DNA from: Actinomyces sp. AC-20-1
GTDB taxonomy: Bacteria > Actinomycetota > Actinomycetes > Actinomycetales > Actinomycetaceae
Direction of reading: 5' to 3'
Length of the DNA: 64,000 nt
NCBI RefSeq assembly: GCF_023369555.1
Contig: NZ_JACJVC010000003.1
Span: 1-64,000, forward strand
The first letter of the stretch is position 1; each line of letters begins with the position of its first letter. Shown here piece after piece: positions 27,323 through 39,771 of the stretch. Made by a program: the position numbers and the translations under genes. The notes beneath the pieces are model-generated. The model saw nothing but the letters and a program-made list of their open reading frames with translations, searched no databases and had not been told where the DNA came from.

Positions 27323-30300
27323 TTACTGCGACGTCGTCTGCTGGCGGCGCCTCCTCATGGCCTCGGCTGCGAGGGCGGCCGCGATCAGCAGACCGCTGCC
27401 CACGAGCAGCATGTCGGTGCCGAGCCCACCGGTGAGCGGCAGGGTCGGGACATCTCGCTTGGTGTTCGTCACCTTCGCCGGCAGGCCGGAGACCGTGCCG
27501 TCCGCGGACACCGTGAAGGTGATGTCGCCGGCCTTGGTGTAGCCGACCGGCGCCTTGGTCTCCGTGAGGGTGTAGGTGCCGATGGGCAGGCCCTCGACAC
27601 CGTAGCTGCCGTTAGAGGAGGGTAGATCGACGCTGGCATCGTTCATTCCGGTGCGGGTGATGGTCCACTCGGCCCCGGTGAGGGGCGCGCCGGACTCATC
27701 GACCTTCTCCCAGGCGATGGGGAATGCCTTGAGCGTGTTGGTGATGGTGCAGGCGACGTCACGTCCCCGCGGCACGGTGACCGTGGTGCCGTTGAGGGCG
27801 ACCTCTCCCCCGGCGCCGTCGGTGTAGGAGCACTGCCAGGTCCCGGCCGCGTAGGCCTCGGCCGGCAGCGCCAGCGTCGCCTGAGCGGACTCGGCGAGAG
27901 TGTAGTCGCCGGCCGCGACCTGCGTCGGCTCGACGGAGCCCGTGCCGTTGAGGGCCGGGGTGCTGCCGGTGGTGGCGGTGAGTGTCCAGTCCTCGGGCAT
28001 CGCCTGCGTGGCCCATGGGTGCACCGAGGCGCTGTTGTCCACCTTCTTGTCCAGGCTCAGCGTCTGCGTGCAGGTGACGGTGTTGGTGAGCGTGTAGCTG
28101 TTGGACTCGGCAGTGAGCGTCACGGTGGCCTCCGGCTTGGCCAGGTCGAGATCGATGACCTGGTCCAGGCCCGTACCACTGAGGCTCGAGCCCGTGAGCT
28201 CGCACCCGGGCATGTCCTTGATCACCGTGGCCTCGGCAATGGTGAGCGTGTCGTCCACGTGATGTCCCGTGCTGGTCTCTCCCCAGGTGGTGTCCGCGTC
28301 GTTGACCTTGAGGGAGGCGGTCATGCCGAGCCCCTCCGGGACGCCACCGATGTACTCCTGGCCGTCGACCATCCACTTCTTGCTCACTGTGACCGTGGCG
28401 ACAGGCGCCGGCTCGCGGTTGATGACGTAGCAGGAGATCTGGTTCTGGGCAGAGACAGGGATCGTGAAGCCACCGTCCGCAGCGTCAGTCACTGAGATAG
28501 GCACCCGTGAGCCGTCGTCGGACAGCTTGTAGCAAGCCGCGTTGGCACCACCCTGCTGGACGAGGCTGTAGCCGGGCTGCTGGGTCTCAGTGAGCGTCAT
28601 CGTGCCGGTGGCGCTTGCCCAGGGGACCTCGAAGCGGAACTCGGTGGCGCCGGTGCCGGTCTGGCTCTCGGCGGCCCCAGTAACGCCGGTCGCGTTGGTG
28701 GTGCCGTCCGCGAAGGTCGCGCCGCCCGCCGTCGTCGCCTCGAAGGTCCAGCCATCGGCGAGGGCCGGGGAGGTGCTGGCGTCATACGTGTAGGGGACGG
28801 TCTGCTTGACAACTGTCACGGTCTGCCGGCATGCGCCCGAGGCGAGCGCCTTGAGCTGCTCGGCCGCCACGGCGTAGTCAGTGGTCTGGAAATAGTCCGA
28901 GCCCGCGCTCTGACCGGAGATGGCCCGGAGGTTGGCCGCCGCCGCGGTGCTGCTCACGCCGCTGCCGACACCGAAGGCGACAACTCTCGCACCCTCGGAC
29001 TTCAGCGCGTTGGCAGAGGCGATGGCCTCCTCCGTGACGTCAAACCGCGTGGTGTTGCCCTGGGCGTACGGTCTGGTTCCATAGAACGTGGGAAGGCCGT
29101 CCGTGATGAACATTACGACGGAGTAGCCCTGGCCCTGCAGCTGTGACAGTCCCCGGTCCCAGTTCGTGCCCTGGGTCAGGTGCGTCCAGCTCGCGATGGA
29201 CTGCTTGACCCTCTGAGCCCCCTCGGGAGTAGAGACCGCAGTGGCGGAAAGGTTGGTCATGCCAGCCGCCGGAGCAACACTCCCGAAGGTGTAGACGCCA
29301 ATGGAGGAGGGCGTGCCGGTCAGCACGTCAACGAAGCTGTTGGCAGCCCTCTTGGCCTGCTCGACATGCTCGGGCCTCACTGAGGAGGACAGGTCCATGA
29401 CAATGGCGACTTTGAGCCCACACTGCTGCGGAAAGGAGGGATTGCCAATGGAGGCCTGCCAGCCACCGGTGGTCGTCGGCAGGCCGCTGCCTGTAAAGCC
29501 ACTGGCACCGCTTCGGTAGGTGCGGCCGCCTTCCAGTCGCGGAGTCGTCATCCGGTACTGCACGCTTTGCACCGGGCTCCAGTCCCCCCGACCTTTGACT
29601 GCGAGGCGCGTGTTGGCGTACCAGCCGGCCGGAACATCGTCCTCGGTGTAGGTGACCGTCATCACCTGGTTCCGATTGGGCTGCCGCGACCCGGTGCTCG
29701 GCACCGTGAAGGCGCAGTCGCCCTCGGCGTCTGAGGTGCAGTAGAAGACCGATCCATTTCCGAGTGTGCCCGTGAGGCGGACCCCCGGGAGCGGCAACTT
29801 CGTGCCGTTCGCAGCACGTGCACCGACAACGCTCACGACGACAACCGATTCCGAATAACCTGCCTGCGGGGCCGCACGCAGTGCGGTAGCCGGCTCCGCC
29901 ACGGCCTCTTTGTCGGCCTCGGCACCGTCCTGCGCTACGGCCTCCTCGCTCTGCGTCACGGTCCAGGTGACGTCACCGACCTCCTCGGCGACCGCGTCTC
30001 CATCGCCGGACGCAGATCCCGGCTCCGCGCCCACCTCGGGCTGCGGCTCAGCAGCACCTCCGATGTCGGCTGTCCCAGGGGCCGGGTCCGTGGCGACCAG
30101 CTCCACAGCAGCCTCCCCGACCACAGCGCCAGCGCCGTCGGACTCGTCCTCACCGAGGGCGAGGGGCGCGGCAGCCAGGGCGAGCCCGCCGGTTCCGAGT
30201 GCAACGGCGAGAGCAACCATAGAAGCCAGGCCGCGGGCGGCACCCGCGCGCCACGGCCGGGAGGCGGCCGCGTGCCGCCTGGTGCCGCTCGTGCTGGGGC

Positions 30301-30331
30301 GCCCGGAGGCGATGGGGTTGAGGTGACTCAT
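27323..30331 (-). CDS. Pilus tip surface protein with von Willebrand factor A domain (FimB/FimQ-like)
   Basis: A 1002-residue cell-surface protein. The ATG at 30331 has GGAGG seven bases upstream and gives a long signal peptide (hydrophobic part about 35-55). An acidic Ala/Glu/Asp-rich stretch follows to about 155. A vWA domain at about 305-470 has an intact metal-ion site: Asp313, Ser315, Ser317, Thr389 and Asp411. Repeated Ig-like / Cna-B-like domains follow to about 950. LPLTG lies at 964-968 with a membrane segment and a basic tail. Such proteins cap sortase pili and bind host or partner-cell ligands. It is the first gene of the pilus operon. The base composition appears less GC-rich than its neighbours, by eye only. 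Confidence 0.88.
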   Translation of the reverse strand: MSHLNPIASGRPSTSGTRRHAAASRPWRAGAARGLASMVALAVALGTGGLALAAAPLALGEDESDGAGAVVGEAAVELVATDPAPGTADIGGAAEPQPEVGAEPGSASGDGDAVAEEVGDVTWTVTQSEEAVAQDGAEADKEAVAEPATALRAAPQAGYSESVVVVSVVGARAANGTKLPLPGVRLTGTLGNGSVFYCTSDAEGDCAFTVPSTGSRQPNRNQVMTVTYTEDDVPAGWYANTRLAVKGRGDWSPVQSVQYRMTTPRLEGGRTYRSGASGFTGSGLPTTTGGWQASIGNPSFPQQCGLKVAIVMDLSSSVRPEHVEQAKRAANSFVDVLTGTPSSIGVYTFGSVAPAAGMTNLSATAVSTPEGAQRVKQSIASWTHLTQGTNWDRGLSQLQGQGYSVVMFITDGLPTFYGTRPYAQGNTTRFDVTEEAIASANALKSEGARVVAFGVGSGVSSTAAAANLRAISGQSAGSDYFQTTDYAVAAEQLKALASGACRQTVTVVKQTVPYTYDASTSPALADGWTFEATTAGGATFADGTTNATGVTGAAESQTGTGATEFRFEVPWASATGTMTLTETQQPGYSLVQQGGANAACYKLSDDGSRVPISVTDAADGGFTIPVSAQNQISCYVINREPAPVATVTVSKKWMVDGQEYIGGVPEGLGMTASLKVNDADTTWGETSTGHHVDDTLTIAEATVIKDMPGCELTGSSLSGTGLDQVIDLDLAKPEATVTLTAESNSYTLTNTVTCTQTLSLDKKVDNSASVHPWATQAMPEDWTLTATTGSTPALNGTGSVEPTQVAAGDYTLAESAQATLALPAEAYAAGTWQCSYTDGAGGEVALNGTTVTVPRGRDVACTITNTLKAFPIAWEKVDESGAPLTGAEWTITRTGMNDASVDLPSSNGSYGVEGLPIGTYTLTETKAPVGYTKAGDITFTVSADGTVSGLPAKVTNTKRDVPTLPLTGGLGTDMLLVGSGLLIAAALAAEAMRRRRQQTTSQ

Positions 30332-30538
30332 GGGGAGACCTCCGGGGAAATGAGGACCGCTCTCCACAGGGGAACGGGCTGACGGGCTCAGTGTCGCAAA
30401 ACAGCCGACATGACACAAATTCATGTCATGACACAGTTCGGACGCAGAGATTACTTAGATACACCGTCCTCATGATGGTGGGCCCCGCACTTCACACCAC
30501 AGGCCACCACGACCTCGCCGGTGACAGCCCTTGGACGC
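30332..30538 (-). promoter_or_regulatory. AT-richer upstream region of the pilus operon with repeated operator-like motif
   Basis: The gap between tuf and the tip gene contains a patch poor in GC at about 30395-30475. On the minus strand TGTGTCATGAC (30425-30435) and TGTGTCATGTC (30407-30417) are repeated 18 bases apart, and TGTCATGACA (30425-30434) is a perfect palindrome. A candidate -10 TAATCT lies at 30448-30453. A transcript from there would place the repeats just past the start, where a repressor could act. No gene was seen in the gap. Confidence 0.5.
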
Positions 30539-34210: not shown

Positions 34211-34681
34211 TTACCAGCGGTAGTGGGCGAAGGCCTTGTTGGACTCGGCCATGCGGTGCATGTCCTCGCGGCGCTTGACAGCGGCGCCCAGACCGTTGGA
34301 GGCGTCGAGGATCTCGTTCATGAGACGCTCGGTCATCGTGTTCTCACGACGCTGGCGCGAGTAGTCCACGAGCCAGCGCAGGGCGAGCGTGGTGGCGCGG
34401 TTGGGGCGCACCTCGACGGGGACCTGGTAGGTCGCGCCGCCGACGCGGCGGGAGCGGACCTCGAGGGCCGGGCGGATGTTGTCCAGGGCGCGCTTGAGGA
34501 CGGCGACCGGGTCCTGGTCCGTCTTGGAGCGCACACCCTCGAGGGCACCGTAGACGATGCGCTCGGCGGTGGACTTCTTGCCGTCCAGGAGGACGCGGTT
34601 GACGAGCTGGGTGACGACCGGCGAGCCGTAGACGGGGTCGACGACGAGGGGGCGCTTGGGCGCGGGACCCTTACGAGGCAT
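34211..34681 (-). CDS. rpsG: 30S ribosomal protein S7
   Basis: A 156-residue S7, head assembly initiator and, in enteric bacteria, the str operon repressor. [39 protein letters not shown] and [20 protein letters not shown] are diagnostic. It shares one base with the rpsL stop, so the two are coupled. Confidence 0.97.
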
Positions 34682-35055
34682 TACTTCTTCTCCTTCTTGG
34701 CGCCGTACTTCGAGCGTGCCTGCTGGCGGCCCTTGACGCCCTGGGTGTCGAGGGAGCCGCGCACGATGTGGTAGCGGACACCGGGAAGGTCCTTCACACG
34801 ACCACCGCGGACGAGCACGATCGAGTGCTCCTGGAGGTTGTGGCCCTCGCCGGGGATGTAGGCCGTGACCTCGATGCCGGACGACAGGCGCACACGGGCG
34901 ACCTTACGCAGGGCGGAGTTCGGCTTCTTCGGGGTCGTGGTGTACACGCGGGTGCACACGCCACGACGCTGCGGGCTGGCCTTGAGCGCGGGCGTCTTGG
35001 ACGACGAGCGCTTCGAGGAGCGGCCCTTGCGGACCAGCTGCTGAATGGTAGGCAC
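34681..35055 (-). CDS. rpsL: 30S ribosomal protein S12
   Basis: A 124-residue S12, the decoding-centre protein and streptomycin target. A GTG at 35055 with GGAG eight bases upstream gives [17 protein letters not shown], the conserved beginning; the frame is open further up without homology. [19 protein letters not shown] and [17 protein letters not shown] carry lysines at the two classical streptomycin positions, that is, the sensitive form. It is the first gene of the str operon. Confidence 0.97.
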
Positions 35056-35398: not shown

Positions 35399-35482
35399 GG
35401 CCGGGGCTGGTCCGGACAGGCCGGGGCTGGTCCGGGCAGGGCAGGGCGGGGCTGGCACGGGCAGGCCGGGGCCGGCCCGGGC
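35399..35482. repeat. GC-rich tandem repeat, about 20-bp unit
   Basis: GGCCGGGGCTGGTCCGGACA (35399-35418) is followed by the same unit with one change (35419-35438), then by two degraded copies to about 35482. It directly precedes the GGACAAC array and lies in the non-coding gap between rpsL and rpoC. Confidence 0.7.
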
Positions 35483-35495
35483 GGTCGGCCCCCGT

Positions 35496-35640
35496 GGACC
35501 ACGCCTGCGTGCCTGGACAACGTCTGCGTGTAAGGACAACCTCCATGCGCAAGGACAACCTGTTGGCGCTCACACGGTTGTCCATCCACGCGCAGGTTGT
35601 CCTGCTGCACATAGGTTGTCCATCCACGCGCGGGTTGTCC
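35496..35640. repeat. Ordered array of eight GGACAAC units, four forward and four inverted, exact 19-bp period
   Basis: Forward units GGACAAC(C) begin at 35496 (one mismatch, GGACCAC), 35515, 35534 and 35553. Inverted units GGTTGTCC begin at 35576, 35595, 35614 and 35633. Every step within each half is 19 bases, and the centre lies near 35568. Spacers are 11 bases and often contain CACGC. In the inverted half a 38-bp double unit is duplicated: 35576-35593 and 35614-35631 are identical. It lies between the rpoC terminator and the str operon promoter region, so it is probably DNA-level structure rather than coding. See findings for possible meanings. Confidence 0.85.
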
Positions 35641-35685
35641 TGGGGAGCGACGGAGCCGCCCGGCACGAGCAGCACGAGCAGCACG

Positions 35686-35722
35686 ACGGCGGGCCGCCAC
35701 CTGCACGGTGACGGCCCGCCGT
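35686..35722 (-). terminator. Terminator after rpoC
   Basis: ACGGCGGGCCG (35686-35696) pairs with CGGCCCGCCGT (35712-35722), and CACC/GGTG inside can pair too. It lies about 93 bases past the rpoC stop. A short GCACGAGCA direct repeat adjoins it at 35663-35683. Confidence 0.7.
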
Positions 35723-35814
35723 TGTCTCAGCCTCGTCTCAGCCCACTCGCGAGCCCGGCCAGCTCCTCCGAAGCGGCCTCGGACCGGGTCCGCGCCCAGC
35801 GCCACAAGGGGCAC

Positions 35815-39771
<3,957 letters not shown>

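Follow-up and report, generated by a model that had tools for sequence, protein, structure and literature searches.

A phased inverted array between rpoC and rpsL of an Actinomyces genome is a copy of a dispersed repeat family, probably served by an AbiEi/PD-(D/E)XK-like protein

The gap between two genes, presumably rpoC and rpsL as recognised from their sequences, contains 7-bp units repeated in two mirrored arms, which raises the question of what such an array is and what maintains its geometry. In the window, that is, the whole stretch of 64,000 nucleotides analysed, it was the sole phased inverted array detected (Table 1). The 4+4 arrangement described in the initial annotation was confirmed, every step being 19 bases and the mirror axis lying at 35568 (GGACMAC versus GTTGTCC), and the 38-bp double unit noticed in the right arm is real, with 97% identity over 29 nt between 35576–35604 and 35614–35642. 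The gap had also been called gene-free; no credible gene overlapping the array was found with a crude gene caller, although mechanical ORFs do cross it. On base composition, an exact 2+2 array with this geometry would be expected about 1e-11 times per 2.7 Mb by chance. GC-rich short repeats spaced 20–25 bp apart (35402–35482) adjoin the array and are missing from the corresponding gap of genome G027, the closest relative at rpoC (95%). Elsewhere in the window, a long ORF of 1033 aa (27323–30424, minus strand) presumably encodes a product resembling a cell-wall-anchored surface protein, with what we take to be the anchoring motif, LPLTGG, close to its end.

Table 1. Array units and neighbouring features, in window positions
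Feature	Position	Strand	Remark
Left arm unit 4, variant core GGACCAC	35496..35502	-	One-mismatch unit
Left arm unit 3, core GGACAAC	35515..35521	-	
Left arm unit 2, core GGACAAC	35534..35540	-	
Left arm unit 1, core GGACAAC	35553..35559	-	
Array centre	35560..35576	.	17 bp separating innermost cores; core start-to-start 24 bp
Right arm unit 1, core GTTGTCC	35577..35583	+	
Right arm unit 2, core GTTGTCC	35596..35602	+	
Right arm unit 3, core GTTGTCC	35615..35621	+	
Right arm unit 4, core GTTGTCC	35634..35640	+	Outer array end
Terminator-like hairpin behind rpoC, distinct from array	35683..35725	-	Arms 35683-35701 / 35707-35725, 89% complementary
rpoC (presumed), upstream neighbour	35815..39771	-	
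rpsL (presumed), downstream neighbour	34681..35055	-	

The genome to which the window belongs (G000; 47 contigs, 2.70 Mb) was searched for phased TTGTCC units, and 111 TTGTCC-N11..14-TTGTCC pairs were observed versus 3 in the reversed control, together with 26 centres of the form GGACAA-N17..21-TTGTCC, all of them N19, versus none. From these, 30 arrays comprising 208 units were collected, a count that may omit a few weaker arrays, and it is nearly certain that the window array is one copy among about 30 of a dispersed family. The mobile repeat family that had been listed initially among several options is thus borne out, and it may hold together with a protein-binding site. Abundance and random placement of the unit had been named as evidence against a specific site; the unit is indeed abundant, yet phase, symmetry and a mostly intergenic position are kept. 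By the crude gene caller, 29 of the 30 arrays are intergenic and the remaining one (L024) lies inside a doubtful ORF. All seven positions of GTTGTCC are 94–100% conserved in the 148 non-terminal units, while the 12 spacer positions are loose. Outermost units are more often inexact than inner ones (23/60 versus 15/148; Fisher p 6e-6), the commonest outermost variant being GTGGTCC, i.e. GGACCAC (14/60 versus 6/148). Beyond the outermost core the conserved signal is lost within about 2 bp, apart from slight remnants at positions 5 and 7, and among the matches listed the likeness between array copies stops at the array edge, a segmental duplication excepted, in agreement with the flank logos. In the same genome, two similar arrays with their flanks form a direct repeat some 200 bp long (87%) around a PIN-domain/FitA-like pair (L025:2751-4006, contig C2), an arrangement like an insertion with a long target duplication, and an array-bearing direct repeat of about 240 bp (L039:2967-4142, C43) surrounds a HepT-like gene (Pfam, 1e-6) and also encloses a gene that looks like a nucleotidyltransferase.

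Across 49 genomes of the genus, the GGACAAC centre was found 26 times in G000, 13 times in Actinomyces bovis (G002), 8 times in G007, where the period of the arrays is 20 bp, twice in G027, and 0–1 times in the others. Lack of phase and symmetry in related strains had initially been held to speak against a specific site; most of the 49 genomes do lack this core, yet several carry another core in the same geometry. When the rpsL-rpoC gap was compared between relatives, as had been proposed, the array was absent from G027 (gap of 409 bp), G011 (410) and G026 (449), versus 753 bp here. A clean empty site was found in none of these three genomes, the gap differences exceeding the array length, and a search with a second array locus (L044) in the same three yielded no clean junction. 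The remaining GGACAAC arrays of G027 appear, by eye, to be decayed. Of the 26 G000 loci fetched, just 1 lies in a gap also found at one of 8 G027 loci, and this same locus matches one of 10 G007 loci; for 20 array places each in G010 and G024, 2 were shared, versus about 8 expected by a rough estimate were all of them shared. In one gap, which lies between an ABC exporter gene and a holin-like gene and has flanks that match on both sides across three genomes, G000 has an array alone, G007 a gene enclosed by two arrays, and G027 a gene and arrays together with one more gene, a pattern to be expected were genes gained and lost at arrays. Nine of the 13 G007 arrays found sit within a quarter megabase (C1:2254100-2509700), and a single exact match to the array pattern was observed on a Holophagales MAG contig (L079).

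A candidate partner of the family was found in G000 as a gene with an array of the same core on either side (C45:104978-105907; L041/L122). This gene (L041:3384-4214) and an array-enclosed gene of G007 (L067:7073-8014) are homologous (51% identity, 8e-94), and each stands alone between its two arrays; at L041, the aligned protein start lies about 145 bp past the end of one array, and the second array stands after the gene. The G027 homologue also lies between two arrays, with a different core (GGACC-type, 20 bp; by eye). Among 21 homologue loci scanned (L114–L134), phased inverted arrays were observed at 13, on both sides of the gene in 11, versus 1 cluster in 109 kb of rpoC loci used as a control. 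These 13 loci exhibited about eight cores, namely GGACAAC, GGACCAC, GTTGGACC, GTTTGGAC, CGACCAC, TCGACCG, TCGACAC and CGCTATC, two of which differ little. The geometry was constant in 13/13, with 19–20 bp within an arm and 24–25 bp across the axis, the 7-mers having been registered by hand and the detector window being 18–22 for the arm and 18–39 for the axis. By eye, palindromes or arrays, mostly of other sequences, were seen on both sides at 8/8 further loci (L127–L130, L132, L133, L154 and L157), the array at L157, a second G044 copy, being of the CGACCAC kind.

The arrangement was further assessed by a flank test, in which the 700 bp on either side of the gene were compared with each other and the best similarity was scored at 55 homologue loci, a further locus, L138, being dropped for its short flank. 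Scores above 40 bits, a threshold fixed after the scores were known, were obtained at 34 of 38 loci in the genus, with loci of related species being non-independent, and at 8 of 17 in other genera, the remaining 9 failing. In the controls, random windows from 20 loci exceeded this value in 2/60 cases, the higher-scoring of which paired two similar stretches that look like ATPase-coding sequence, and combining the left flank of one locus with the right flank of another did so in 3/60. The gene has a recurrent place between two arrays, and the protein encoded on C45 is very probably the partner of the window array.

The core sequence follows the protein. For 22 proteins with cores assigned by eye, GTTTGGAC being grouped with GTTGGACC, the 19 same-core pairs average 81% identity, and the 212 different-core pairs share at most 65%. 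In G007, three paralogues that are 55–61% alike have three cores, and two of these share 80% identity with the G044 protein that has the same core. Two exceptions were noted: the G011 and G027 proteins, filed under one core, are 58% identical, and G000 and G007 share GGACAAC though their proteins are only 49% identical. Mere presence of the gene proved wrong as a marker of array carriers, homologues being found in 47 of the 49 genomes; the association of gene and array appears only once the core of each gene is read from its flanks. Cores read in this way predicted the array-carrying genomes clearly for two cores and weakly for a third. For GGTCCAA, the five predicted genomes contained 162 (G010), 227 (G024), 181 (G025), 75 (G028) and 189 (G029) pairs, versus 52 in G041, 24 in G027, 14 in G005, 12 in G033 and no more than 3 in the other 40 of the 49. 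Pairs of GAGRCGGTAT were confined, among the 49 genomes, to both predicted ones (G006, 5; G016, 15). For GTGGTCG, the three predicted genomes rank first (G044, 34; G037, 13; G007, 10), with others having up to 9 and the reversed controls up to 13.

Some carriers fit this pattern less well. In G041, with its 52 GGTCCAA pairs, the best match to the query protein was 3.5e-16, accompanied by five profile matches, and no partner was identified. The protein matches of G005 and G033 end near position 190 of 304 and are perhaps broken genes. The sole homologue at 1e-20 in A. bovis (C4:39580-40494; L154) is flanked by near-perfect palindromes GTTTGTGACGTAAACGCC, unrelated to the 13 GGACAAC arrays of that species, so that among homologues at this level no partner was identified for these arrays. 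A second, distant homologue in G000 (C47:37590-38441; L158:3141) has an element of its own, with the core TCGAGGG and a 20-bp step.

The homologues appear to comprise an N-terminal part similar to AbiEi antitoxins and a C-terminal part similar to PD-(D/E)XK proteins (MTES_1575/DUF559). For the former, the L178 protein matched AbiEi_4 over the cut-off (7.6e-7), and one PADLOC AbiEi profile matched 22 of 30 members, and the G007 protein matched PADLOC AbiEi at 6.6e-8; for the latter, the best MTES_1575 match (3.2e-6, L154) and the weak DUF559 matches were under the curated cut-offs. The G000 and G007 proteins themselves matched no Pfam model below 0.05, nuclease or AbiEi models included, and no NCBIfam model. 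In 30 homologues, the invariant residues are E198, S199, G201, E202, S203, R206, Q220, D235, E246, F247, D248, G249, K252, Y253, E269 and R272, with E198, E202, D235, E246 and K252 among them; the set may represent a PD-(D/E)XK-type domain, if an unusually spaced one, the conserved E-F-D-G-x-x-K differing from the textbook (D/E)-x-K. The homologues are under purifying selection, as judged from dN/dS values of 0.11–0.31 in eight pairs not including the G000 protein. Profile matches at E <= 1e-20 occurred in 132 of 213 Actinomycetaceae genomes and matches of 33–36% identity in 4 plasmid records; viral contigs gave none, and a sequence-profile search of the PDB returned only one unrelated chain (E 0.26).

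Taken together, the window array is read here as one dispersed copy, lacking a gene, of a repeat family that is specific to the species and served by the AbiEi/PD-(D/E)XK-like protein, a reading that is held with slightly more confidence than doubt. Since the geometry is fixed while the core changes, the protein probably binds the arrays. By analogy with AbiEi-type proteins, which recognise inverted repeats, in one case with cooperativity, the inverted core pair at the centre would bind a dimer and nucleate the array, protomers most likely sitting head-to-tail on the 7-bp cores, with each extra core at 19 or 20 bp adding one protomer. This agrees with the operator for an oligomerising DNA-binding protein suggested initially, except for the placement of units every two turns on one face: 19 bp amounts to 1.81 turns at 10.5 bp per turn, successive units are therefore not on one face, and the protomers would wind around the helix. 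Nuclease activity is rather plausible, and the nuclease-like domain could then act at arrays or their targets, host repair after cutting copying or deleting arrays between genes. Whether the protein also drives array dispersal is evenly balanced; such a role is suggested because the families are species-specific, the sites are mostly unshared and the gene-between-arrays unit exists. In its most far-reaching form, held tentatively and with more doubt than belief, the proposal is an undescribed class of repeat system, in which an AbiEi/PD-(D/E)XK-type protein would recognise phased 19/20-bp arrays, hold its own gene between two of these, spread them across intergenic DNA by cutting and repair, and co-diversify with the core to give many specificities in a single genus. 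Against the reading of the window array as a copy served by this protein stand the arrays of A. bovis and G041, for which no partner was identified, the MITE-like terminal repeats around part of the G010/G024 arrays and a covariation of spacers in G007 (both taken up below), the 9 of 17 loci in other genera that failed the flank test, and the fact that no clean insertion junction was obtained.

Among the alternatives, the one that survives best, though unlikely, is regulation: acting at the upstream array, the AbiEi-like protein would repress its own gene, and the arrays dispersed elsewhere would serve as regulon operators or as titration sites. According to PMC7319586, both AbiEi and Rv2827c bind to inverted repeats that precede the operons encoding them, and the array lying about 145 bp before the protein start at L041 would suit such a role. 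However, the second array stands after the gene, the genes adjoining the arrays are, by eye, varied and apparently unrelated housekeeping genes, and arrays avoid promoters, with 20 convergent, 24 tandem and 7 divergent gaps over G000, G002 and G007 (convergent versus divergent, p 0.019).

Two further alternatives are both improbable. Chromosome organisation, with the arrays serving a nucleoid protein, namely the AbiEi-like protein, as loading sites or boundaries, would accord with some 30 mostly intergenic sites of fixed geometry in 2.7 Mb; it is opposed by the absence of the GGACAAC core from most of the 49 genomes, by pair counts that range from 5 to 227 among species with different cores, and by array gaps that are mostly unshared between relatives (1 of 26 G000 loci being shared). 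In the other, ordinary insertion-sequence transposases move the arrays as passive passengers and the nuclease-like gene is one more cargo. MITE-like terminal repeats flank 16 of the 41 G010/G024 arrays on both sides and 13 on one side, so that an ordinary transposase may move the MITE-borne arrays of these two genomes, and in G000 VapBC-like and HepT-like modules, too, are surrounded by arrays. At the arrays of G000, G002 and G007, however, neither terminal repeats nor consistent target duplications were detected, a classical MITE being thereby rejected for G000, nor were MITE-like terminal repeats present in the 1.5-kb flanks of five GGTCCAA-type gene loci (L117, L119, L120, L121 and L125), and core-protein matching across genomes would be unexpected for random cargo. 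At four loci of G010 and G024 (L217, L223, L240 and L246), the array is contained in a MITE-like element of about 400 bp, with ends like TAGGTCSTGTTGTGTGAGT and flanking CTAG.

Still less probable is an RNA element, in which the array works as a transcribed hairpin that serves as a terminator or mRNA stabiliser. The long RNA hairpin mentioned in the initial annotation is energetically possible, the predicted folds being very stable (mean z -5.9 for the 30 G000 arrays, -7.3 for G002 and -9.6 for G007), and arrays prefer the 3' ends of genes. Complementarity of spacers across the axis was compared between the same locus and different loci, with three near-duplicate loci excluded. No covariation was detected for the G000 spacers (0.452 versus 0.426, p 0.16; 0.387 versus 0.412, p 0.84; 0.392 versus 0.389, p 0.47), nor for those of G002 (p 0.20 and 0.13) or the outer spacer of G007 (p 0.64), and the hairpin as a conserved entity is thus unsupported in G000 and G002. 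The inner spacer of G007 did covary (0.923 versus 0.791, p 0.0004), which speaks for an RNA; gene conversion between the arms is one possible cause, and the two-part reading of array and protein leaves this covariation unaccounted for. Furthermore, left and right unit numbers per array barely correlate in G000 (0.20), rpoC already has a hairpin of its own, and Rfam gave no match at the gathering score. With a conserved 7-bp core and spacing, and with spacers that do not covary, core and phase rather than pairing are maintained in G000, and a DNA-protein array is therefore likelier there than an RNA hairpin. Finally, a DnaA-titration or replication-control site, suggested at first by the TTGTCC that the core has in common with the actinobacterial DnaA box, can be dismissed, a DnaA box cluster being rejected on sequence with none of 309 units in three genomes reading TTGTCCACA and the array core varying from species to species.

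If the reading of array and partner protein is true, a protein family common in Actinomycetaceae is tied to genome-wide repeats, and about eight cores in one geometry at 13 loci, with more seen by eye, offer a natural series of protein-core pairs for reading DNA recognition. Repeat populations of the REP-RAYT kind would then have arisen more than once, by way of an unrelated enzyme as a second, independently evolved answer, and their persistence could be tested in another phylum.

Several known systems share features with the one described here. Phased protein-binding repeats near 19–22 bp occur in iterons and in the multi-site ends of the transposons Tn7 and Tn5053, from which the present arrays differ in having no terminal inverted repeat or target duplication in G000, G002 and G007. 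The conserved C-terminal motif and the weak Pfam matches under curated cut-offs liken that part of the protein to the MTES_1575/DUF559 group of PD-(D/E)XK type. AbiEi of the type IV toxin-antitoxin system AbiE resembles the N-terminal part; according to PMC7319586, AbiEi binds inverted repeats with cooperativity and bends DNA, its sites being two 23-bp repeats, and those of Rv2827c four, in one promoter. Here, in contrast, a nuclease-like C-terminal domain is present, arrays flank the gene and are spread throughout the genome, and next to the gene, alone between its arrays at L041 and L067, no AbiEii toxin gene was noticed. Among the matches listed in a search of open-licence literature, no publication linking AbiEi, DUF559 or MTES_1575 to dispersed palindromes was found, and the joining of an AbiEi/PD-(D/E)XK-like protein with dispersed arrays is called new because no such pairing was found in the families and literature searched.

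The closest parallel in arrangement is REP-RAYT, in which, according to PMC2817692, the gene lies between two cognate palindromic repeats, intergenic copies are dispersed, their abundance tracks the gene, and repeat and protein co-diversify. The gene between cognate repeats (34 of 38 genus loci, with an unrelated protein), the dispersed copies and the co-diversification of repeat and protein are found here as well. In contrast, RAYT is a Y1 (HUH) transposase and the present protein is AbiEi/PD-(D/E)XK-like; the REP unit is a short hairpin with a GT(A/G)G head, whereas phased arrays of 7-bp cores with 19/20-bp steps are found here, and such a head is absent from the unit and flank logos. RAYT as a partner was rejected, no Y1 transposase (PF01797) being detected in the 49 genus genomes, with the control positive in 5 of 14 well-known genomes. 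Since this transposase is absent and none of the models searched relates the protein to it, the system is, as judged from these comparisons, not a member of REP-RAYT but one that works like it and is built of unrelated parts; if all pairs of a gene and a dispersed repeat are counted as one kind, it belongs within that kind.
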